Notes under the pieces: generated by a model
Told to the model about the DNA's origin: nothing
The model's database searches: none
The model's input: only the letters and a program-made list of their open reading frames with translations
Made by a program: the position numbers and the translations under genes
NCBI GenBank assembly: GCA_027051195.1
Contig: JALUAB010000123.1
Span: 1-47,194 of the forward strand
DNA from: Hyphomicrobiales bacterium
GTDB lineage: Bacteria > Pseudomonadota > Alphaproteobacteria > Rhizobiales > Aestuariivirgaceae
Length of the DNA: 47,194 nucleotides
Direction of reading: 5' to 3'
Part shown: one piece after another, positions 91-42,985 of the stretch
How positions within the stretch are numbered: the first letter of the stretch is position 1
Layout: the number at the start of each line of letters is the position of its first letter

Positions 91-142
91 TTCAATTCGA
101 TTGAAATGCGGCGCTTCTGCTGAAAGGACCGTTAACCTTTCA
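91..142. repeat. Two adjacent inverted repeats
   Basis: TTCAAT-TCG-ATTGAA (91-105) is a perfect 6-bp inverted repeat with a 3-base centre. TGAAAGG at 121-127 and CCTTTCA at 136-142 form a perfect 7-bp inverted repeat with an 8-base centre that contains GTTAA. Neither is followed by a T-run, so they look more like protein-binding operators than terminators. What they control is not known. Confidence 0.5.
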
Positions 143-186
143 TCAAGAAAATGGCCCGCGCGGGCGGCGCAAGACCCTGCCGAAAC

Positions 187-215
187 TTTAACGGAAGGTT
201 AAAGTGTGATATAAG
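187..215 (+). promoter_or_regulatory. CtrA-type box overlapping a possible promoter
   Basis: TTAA (188-191), seven bases, TTAA (199-202) matches the TTAA-N7-TTAA consensus of the alphaproteobacterial response regulator CtrA. The same stretch is a perfect 8-bp inverted repeat (185-205). A promoter-like pair overlaps it: TTTAAC (187-192), 17 bases, TATAAG (210-215), which would start transcription near base 222. CtrA boxes commonly overlap the -35 of the promoters they control. The match is seen; regulation is inferred. Confidence 0.5.
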
Positions 216-221
216 GAGGGT

Positions 222-273
222 GTATGGCGGTCGCGACAGCCATCCGGGCTTCCTGCTGAAGCCCGGTTTCTTT
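222..273 (+). ncRNA. Candidate micro-transcript or attenuated leader
   Basis: Starting about seven bases after the TATAAG element, the DNA encodes two back-to-back hairpins. The first is 224-243, a near-perfect palindrome around CGCG with one mismatched pair (229/238). The second is a terminator: CCGGGCTT at 244-251, a 7-base loop, AAGCCCGG at 259-266, then TTTCTTT. The whole unit would be about 50 nt. It might be a small RNA or an early-terminated leader of carD. An 11-codon frame (ATG 224 to TGA 257-259) lies inside, but its Shine-Dalgarno-like AAGGAGG (213-219) would fall within the promoter. No known RNA family is recognised. Confidence 0.35.
244..273 (+). terminator. Rho-independent terminator
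   Basis: Perfect 8-bp stem CCGGGCTT/AAGCCCGG with a 7-base loop, followed by TTTCTTT. It lies 110 bases before carD, so it would stop transcripts coming from the left or from the CtrA-box promoter. Confidence 0.7.
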
Positions 274-383
274 GCGCGCTGCCGCCTGACACGGAAAGCA
301 TAACGGTTGTTTCGACAATTGCAAGCGGTATTCGCCGGCACGGCGTTTGCCGGTCACGAAAAACGAACCGAGGGCGCAACGAC

Positions 384-26548: not shown

Positions 26549-26623
26549 GCGGGCGTAGCTCAGGGGTAGAGCACAACCTTGCCAAGGTTGGGGTCGTGAG
26601 TTCGAATCTCATCGCCCGCTCCA
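26549..26623 (+). tRNA. tRNA-Gly (GCC)
   Basis: 75 bases including the encoded CCA. The acceptor GCGGGCG (26549-26555) pairs with CGCCCGC (26613-26619), followed by discriminator T and CCA (26621-26623). The D-arm reads AGCTCAGGGGTAGAGC, the anticodon stem is CAACC/GGTTG with loop TTGCCAA so the anticodon is GCC (26581-26583), and the T-loop is GTTCGAATC. It reads glycine codons GGC/GGT. A terminator follows at 26642. Confidence 0.98.
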
Positions 26624-28774: not shown

Positions 28775-28791
28775 TTAACACGGCCTTAACC
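28775..28791. promoter_or_regulatory. Perfect CtrA-type box upstream of the TacA-like gene
   Basis: TTAA (28775-28778), seven bases, TTAACC (28786-28791). This is an exact TTAA-N7-TTAAC match. It lies 71 bases before the TacA-like start and about 110 bases before the divergent ABC1 kinase start, so either gene could respond. In Caulobacter tacA is a known CtrA target, which favours the plus-strand gene. Confidence 0.7.
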
Positions 28792-28862
28792 ATGAACGTG
28801 CCATGTTCCGCCCAGTGGCGGCAACCGAACGGCACAATCATAACAACGACGGAATAGCATAC

Positions 28863-30347
<1,485 letters not shown>

Positions 30348-42900: not shown

Positions 42901-42934
42901 TTGACTTCGGCCCCGTTCGCGGCCTATGGCGAAC
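42901..42934 (+). promoter_or_regulatory. serC promoter with flanking palindrome
   Basis: TTGACT (42901-42906), 17 bases, CTATGG (42924-42929) is a plausible promoter, with transcription starting near 42936. GTTCGC (42915-42920) and GCGAAC (42929-42934) form a 6-bp inverted repeat bracketing the -10. That spacing is typical of a repressor site, though no regulator is known. Confidence 0.55.
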
Positions 42935-42935
42935 G

Positions 42936-42985
42936 CGGGCCACCCCTCCCCAACGAGGGGCGAACATCTGGAAGGATGTATTGAC
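42936..42985 (+). promoter_or_regulatory. serC leader RNA
   Basis: Two hairpins in the 50-base leader: CCCCTC (42943-42948) with GAGGGG (42955-42960), and ACATC (42964-42968) with GATGT (42975-42979). The Shine-Dalgarno GGAAGGA (42970-42976) sits in the loop and 3' arm of the second hairpin. This matches the serC motif described for alphaproteobacteria, in which the last stem overlaps the serC ribosome binding site. It should control serC translation; the signal is not known. Confidence 0.78.

Follow-up and report, generated by a model that had tools for sequence, protein, structure and literature searches.

In the window, as we call the whole 47,194-nt stretch of a Hyphomicrobiales metagenome-assembled genome (MAG) analysed here, a promoter (P1) upstream of carD is followed almost at once by an intrinsic terminator. 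The question raised by this arrangement is whether the short unit makes a small RNA of its own or stands in the leader of carD. The initial annotation proposed a CtrA-box promoter driving a two-hairpin micro-RNA, with an attenuated carD leader as its alternative. Our preferred reading, to which we assign a probability of about 0.6 on sequence comparison, is that the module is a CtrA-type promoter with an attenuated carD leader. CarD/CdnL binds RNA polymerase and promotes transcription of rRNA; in Caulobacter, the amount of tagged protein changes in the course of the cell cycle (PMC5324124; papers are cited here by PMC number).

Sequence analysis of the window places the carD control region at positions 131-383 (Table 1). 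Since the window begins at a contig edge, the gene upstream of the module is not visible here. The promoter-like pair TTTAAC/TATAAG pointed out initially is present, together with a TG that extends the -10 element, and was missed by the scan that reports the terminator. Both of the hairpins described after the -10 can also be found: the predicted RNA (222-273) folds as two hairpins at -23.1 kcal/mol (z -2.62), and the fold of the segment with its flanks (215-280) is unremarkable (z -0.97). This RNA had been described as having no ribosome binding site. A GGAGG does exist at 215-219, 4 nt ahead of an ATG at 224, but it lies 5' of the predicted start, so that a P1 transcript would lack it. The ATG has a counterpart in 4 of the 11 genomes of the window's genus, where the ORFs are unrelated. 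An SD-led small protein encoded by ORF 224-259 (MAVATAIRASC) was rejected, because GGAGG precedes the predicted start and the ORF is not conserved. Nor does the module look like a trp-type attenuator, for which a conserved leader ORF overlapping the terminator would be expected: no equivalent of ORF 224-259 is conserved among the genomes of the genus.

Table 1. Features of the carD control region and carD, in window coordinates.
Feature	Position	Strand	Remarks
Upstream element GTTAACCTT	131..139	+	Resembles second CtrA half-site class
Promoter P1	186..215	+	-35 TTTAAC 187-192; TG 207-208 (extended -10); -10 TATAAG 210-215
Perfect CtrA-type box TTAA-N7-TTAA, TTAACGGAAGGTTAA	188..202	+	Overlaps P1 -35
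Predicted terminated leader RNA, ~52 nt	222..273	+	Start predicted 7 nt past the -10, +/-2
Hairpin 1	224..243	+	Present in fold; not conserved
Intrinsic terminator CCGGGCTTC-CTGCT-GAAGCCCGG + TTTCTTT	244..273	+	Terminator scan
Terminator hairpin (9 pairs); T-run TTTCTTT	244..266; 267..273	+	Read from sequence
Remaining carD leader	274..383	+	Promoter signal not above shuffles
carD, CdnL-type CarD, 181 aa	384..929	+	PF02559 and PF21095 above cut-off

To follow the module beyond the window, carD was searched in 60 genomes, including the window's own, with a match in 57, and the upstream regions of the returned loci were read. As a plain DNA query, positions 120-300 matched only their own genome and one relative among the same 60. 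Because a plain match is nearly absent, it is a pattern that has been kept rather than a sequence. A model, R1, was built from 28 aligned promoter-to-terminator stretches (27 from the family and one from another family), and includes the promoter. R1 gave one match each in 67 of the 69 family genomes, 40 of these 67 lying outside the training set. One of the two misses, G030, is a genome in which carD was also not found, and the other, G068, is 74% complete. Of the 67 matches, 64 are followed by carD in the same orientation, and the other three end at contig edges. In the four genomes of the window's genus covered by a check of the upstream neighbour (G002, G005, G007 and G009), this is a TPR-repeat gene and not fdxA, and the module is still found ahead of carD. 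When R1 was run over 82 loci (80 named loci plus L012 and L024), it had 14 matches up to E = 1, and the best five were family members. Over 249 genomes of the order, E <= 0.01 was reached in 19, comprising 10 of this family and three each of families f5, f36 and f38. carD was downstream in all eight of the nine non-family matches that were fetched; the ninth is L023, which had been found via carD.

A hairpin with a T-rich tail follows P1 in 67 of 67 family matches. For two of them, G005 and G009, the stem chosen by the hairpin routine is wrong or poor, and a better one is visible by eye. Each of the five stem pairs of the model is a standard pair in 66 or 67 of 67 sequences, and at four of these positions the sequences use two or more types of standard pair; for example, the fourth is G-U in 42, G-C in 13 and A-U in 12. 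These counts come from the alignment fitted to R1, with the reverse-strand rows L133 and L139 dropped. Within the genus (nine genomes, G003 and G009 left out), identity is 0.727 for the promoter against 0.576 for shuffled sequence, and 0.651 against 0.546 for the hairpin. Hairpin 1 has no such record: of the two hairpins described initially, only the terminator is conserved. Loss of the box and of both hairpins in close relatives had been named as one observation that would speak against the initial proposal; in these relatives the box and the terminator are kept, and hairpin 1 alone is lost. Judged from these alignments, what is conserved is predicted termination at a set distance, not RNA sequence. 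The folds of 15 terminated RNAs ranged in z from -0.06 to -3.51, and no antiterminator or alternative fold was apparent in them.

The perfect TTAA-N7-TTAA reported on the -35 is confirmed in the sequence, and occurs in 11 of 11 promoters of the window's genus. In all 67 family matches the -35 reads CTTTAA, at a fixed spacing to the TGnTA of the -10. Among the 56 family genomes outside the window's genus, TTAA-N7-TTAA is found in none, TTAA-N6-TTAA in 34 and TTAA-N7-TAAA in 50. A 6-nt spacing is known from one of five verified CtrA sites in Sinorhizobium meliloti (PMC3616915) and from two divergent CtrA sites in the Caulobacter pilA promoter (PMC11264516). Full CtrA motifs near the -35 mark activated promoters in Caulobacter (PMC4287350), and the 5' base of the present box, 34 nt before the predicted start at 222, agrees with this rule. 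The genome encodes a CtrA ortholog (L153 1063-1791, + strand; NF045991, 395.6 bits against a cut-off of 350). Four of its six other boxes precede genes for a flagellin, FtsZ, a PilZ protein and a sigma54-type response regulator, and the ORFs tested beside the remaining two had no Pfam match. The initial claim of a CtrA-box promoter finds support: the conservation in the genus, the ortholog and the gene context of the four boxes favour P1 as a CtrA-type full-motif promoter, with CtrA binding predicted. A chpT-like gene adjoins ctrA on the opposite strand (L153 1858-2550, - strand; NF046018, 239.6 bits, just below the cut-off of 240). The response regulator box is the second box of the window (28775-28789), upstream of the gene at 28803-30344 (PF00158, PF00072).

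A further element lies upstream of P1. In the window, TTAACC stands 54 nt before the first base of P1, and it resembles TTAACCAT, a sequence that has been treated as a second CtrA motif class (PMC11527210). Among the 67 family genomes, 62 carry an exact TTAACC in the 150 nt ahead of P1, at distances of 42 nt (one genome), 53-55 nt (22) and 62-67 nt (39); none of the 62 has it at 43-52 or 56-61 nt. The other five carry one-letter variants at 52-66 nt, one of them also at 75. Eight loci of other families have TTAAC at 55, 63, 63, 63, 64, 64, 44 and 32 nt. In a further 11 non-family loci, five have the half-site at 53, 63, 64, 64 and 66 nt; L023 shows it at both 32 and 106 nt, a variant lies at 116 nt in L112, and none was found upstream of P1 in L024, L067, L079 or L116. 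A period scan of the spacings peaks broadly near 11, a result to be read with the fact that spacing is shared among related genomes. Since the distances differ by roughly a turn of the helix, they suggest a protein bound on one face of the DNA.

Is P1 the promoter of carD itself? In other Hyphomicrobiales, among them Rhizobium, Sinorhizobium, Agrobacterium, Mesorhizobium, Bradyrhizobium and others, a TTGATT-type -35 with TGTGnTA is found at the same place upstream of carD, mostly without a terminator. A scan of the named loci returned a promoter candidate in 73 of 82, of which some with low scores, L023's among them, are surely wrong; a terminator-like hairpin accompanied 18 of the 73, and five of these 18 are family members. 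Between the terminator and carD, no second promoter was found in 64 genomes, the best sigma-70 score being 6.56 against 6.50 in shuffled sequence. This score is crude, P1 itself reaching only 7-10, so that it could overlook an additional carD promoter of low strength. With the carD start set by rule at the most upstream ATG, the gap from the terminator is shorter than 80 nt in 23 of the 64. One motif suspected by eye to be a second carD promoter, GCATAAGG, was set aside because the gap-wide promoter score, in which the motif is not scored alone, equals that of the shuffles. carD could also be transcribed from upstream genes. With P1 the only promoter visible for carD, the terminator would stand in the carD leader. 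The attenuated leader offered as an alternative in the initial annotation therefore fits better than its first proposal, since P1 matches the carD promoter of the order and a second one was not found.

The initial proposal amounts to an independent trans-acting small RNA, in which CtrA drives a self-terminated RNA of ~52 nt and carD uses another promoter. A unit with its own promoter and terminator, whose RNA has a nearly constant length and a U-rich 3' end, would suit such an RNA. However, in the same genus comparison its 5' tail has an identity of 0.549 against 0.509 shuffled, much like the post-terminator spacer (0.553 against 0.540). At this background level there is no conserved seed, and a conserved trans-acting seed was accordingly rejected for the genus. 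The micro-RNA is thus the weaker half of the initial claim, the tail being at background, and, with P1 matching the order's carD promoter and no other having been detected, we favour the attenuated leader and regard a trans-acting RNA as unlikely. The ~52-nt RNA may well accumulate under either reading. It is also conceivable that the hairpin is the terminator of the upstream gene, ending its transcripts before carD, as it sits between fdxA and carD in many family genomes and would stop upstream transcripts too. The distances argue otherwise. From the first base of P1 to the terminator end there are 86.5 nt on average (SD 3.2, range 74-95, n = 67), whereas the distance from the fdxA stop to the terminator has an SD of 76.5 (n = 54 of 67, by a loose stop-motif regular expression), and that from the terminator to the start of carD homology an SD of 147.6 (n = 64). 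Being fixed to P1 and to neither neighbouring gene, the terminator belongs to P1. In addition, the hairpin is kept where the upstream neighbour is the TPR gene, and any hairpin downstream of P1 necessarily acts on P1 transcripts. Identity as the fdxA terminator was rejected on the variable fdxA distance and the fixed P1 distance, and we consider the upstream-gene reading in general very improbable.

A different doubt concerns the box, which might belong to another regulator with a similar palindrome or be a by-product of an A+T-rich -35. It lies within a longer perfect inverted repeat, ACTTTAAC-N5-GTTAAAGT (185-205), and its -35 half is invariant for promoter reasons. Its frequency says little: the two occurrences of TTAA-N7-TTAA in the window compare with none in 100 shuffles, but the genome as a whole has seven against six for the reversed control pattern. 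The count is no higher than chance and was dropped as evidence for CtrA, leaving the location and conservation of the box to carry the weight. Against the doubt, the second TTAA does not change at any of its four positions in the genus (11/11) while the N7 spacer drifts, and the 30 nt preceding P1 come close to shuffled identity (0.60 against 0.564, in nine of the 11 genus genomes). The outer arm bases of the inverted repeat vary within the genus, and the genes behind four of the six other boxes are those named above. A box unconnected with CtrA is, in our judgement, quite improbable.

Under the preferred reading of an attenuated carD leader, the CtrA-type promoter, with its upstream half-site, its box on the -35 and its extended -10, would start transcription near 222. 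RNA polymerase would meet the intrinsic terminator at once, and much of the transcription would end at about 273, giving the ~52-nt RNA, with carD expressed by the share of polymerases that pass the terminator. Initiation would be governed by CtrA or by another factor recognising the site, and carD output would be limited or gated at the terminator. We infer from the sequence the start site, the binding of CtrA and its sign, the efficiency of termination, the origin of carD mRNA in read-through, and any signal that alters read-through. If this is true, the promoter and attenuator before carD would couple the making of ribosomes to the cell cycle through RNA, and a housekeeping promoter would have been rewired by a change of TTGA to TTAA plus an added second half-site.

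The sister genera show a further feature of the leader. Among the 56 leaders from outside the window's genus, 54 have an ATG at alignment columns 35-44, at the predicted RNA start (column 37 expected), and in 50 of these 54 a stop follows within two further codons, immediately in 26. Only 12 of 127 flanking ATGs are followed this closely by a stop (Fisher p 3e-28, relatedness not taken into account); counted by genus, start-stop is found in seven of eight (p 5e-7, one split genus left out). The ORF ends before the hairpin in 53 of the 54 leaders. The stops differ between close relatives (TAG, TAA and TGA), and ATGTGG was not seen in the 56 leaders. On one CarD tree with partly supported branches we count by eye about seven stop-to-stop switches against three losses, which gives p 0.02 if chance alone preserved a stop in one third of changes; the tree tool itself reports 18 changes among four labels, of which the "sense" label also includes ATG-X-stop leaders. 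In the window's genus an ATG is found there in 4 of 11 genomes, with a stop within two codons in none of the four. Two readings offer themselves: the stop may prevent leaderless ribosomes from running into the terminator, or the control may itself involve a parked ribosome. The boldest extension would make the carD leader an unrecognised class of translation-coupled attenuator, in which a 70S ribosome on a leaderless AUG-stop ORF of near-zero length ahead of the terminator (a "ribosome parking site") reports initiation or release capacity by its occupancy to carD, whose product tunes rRNA promoters, and CtrA ties P1 to the cell cycle; the genus of the window would then be derived, its start-stop lost and its CtrA box made perfect. 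We offer this as a speculation with the odds well against it.

With the full-motif CtrA promoters of Caulobacter and other alphaproteobacteria, P1 shares the box spacing, the place over the -35 and an upstream TTAACC resembling the second class of half-site; unlike theirs, its transcript would be terminated within ~50 nt, and CtrA binding is here a prediction. carD was not found as a CtrA target in the available parts of the CtrA and CarD literature searched. With intrinsic-terminator attenuators the module shares a promoter, a short leader, a hairpin with a T-run and a downstream gene for which no second promoter was found, whereas an antiterminator fold, leader peptide or ligand site was not identified in the window's genome. 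An Rfam scan of the window had no match at the module. In L032, one of 20 relatives scanned, the model of SorX (RF02784), a 75-nt RNA of Rhodobacter sphaeroides, matches at 1107-1181, exactly over the module; the match is weak, and membership was rejected, since its 23.7 bits fall below the gathering score of 46.6 and SorX comes from a different gene and locus. The AUG and immediate stop in the leaders of the sister genera recall the eukaryotic AUG-stop uORFs of Arabidopsis NIP5;1. There, however, eukaryotic reinitiation is involved (PMC5972666), whereas the sister-genus ORFs are leaderless, bacterial and ahead of a terminator, and the window's genus lacks the feature. The AUGUGA/GUGUGA sites of E. 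coli, as in narQ, likewise have a bacterial start codon directly before a stop, but there the start codons overlap within the initiation site of the gene itself, with termination-reinitiation (PMC9841429); the start-stop of the sister genera lies at the predicted 5' end of the leader, before the terminator and far from the gene start. In the open-licence papers searched, we found no description of a carD leader with a promoter-terminator module, nor of a leaderless start-stop ORF ahead of a terminator.

Some minor observations were made on the same loci. In L075, L078, L079 and L103 (Xanthobacteraceae and unplaced Rhizobiales), an ORF of 15-30 codons, for example MKNAPRYGAPLYLEPFCL, begins with an ATG close to where the RNA is predicted to start and appears to enter the terminator hairpin, the opposite of the start-stop leaders. 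By eye, CarD of several sister genera and of Devosia, Hyphomicrobium, Bradyrhizobium and Tepidicaulis loci has a long Lys/Ala/Pro-rich, histone-H1-like N-terminal extension before its RNAP-interaction domain (L026-L032 and L034; also L041, L043, L071, L072, L091 and L095). The extension is absent from the CarD of the window. Elsewhere in the window, a serC leader RNA (RF00517, 65.9 bits) is found at 42933-42984 and a tRNA at 26549-26620.
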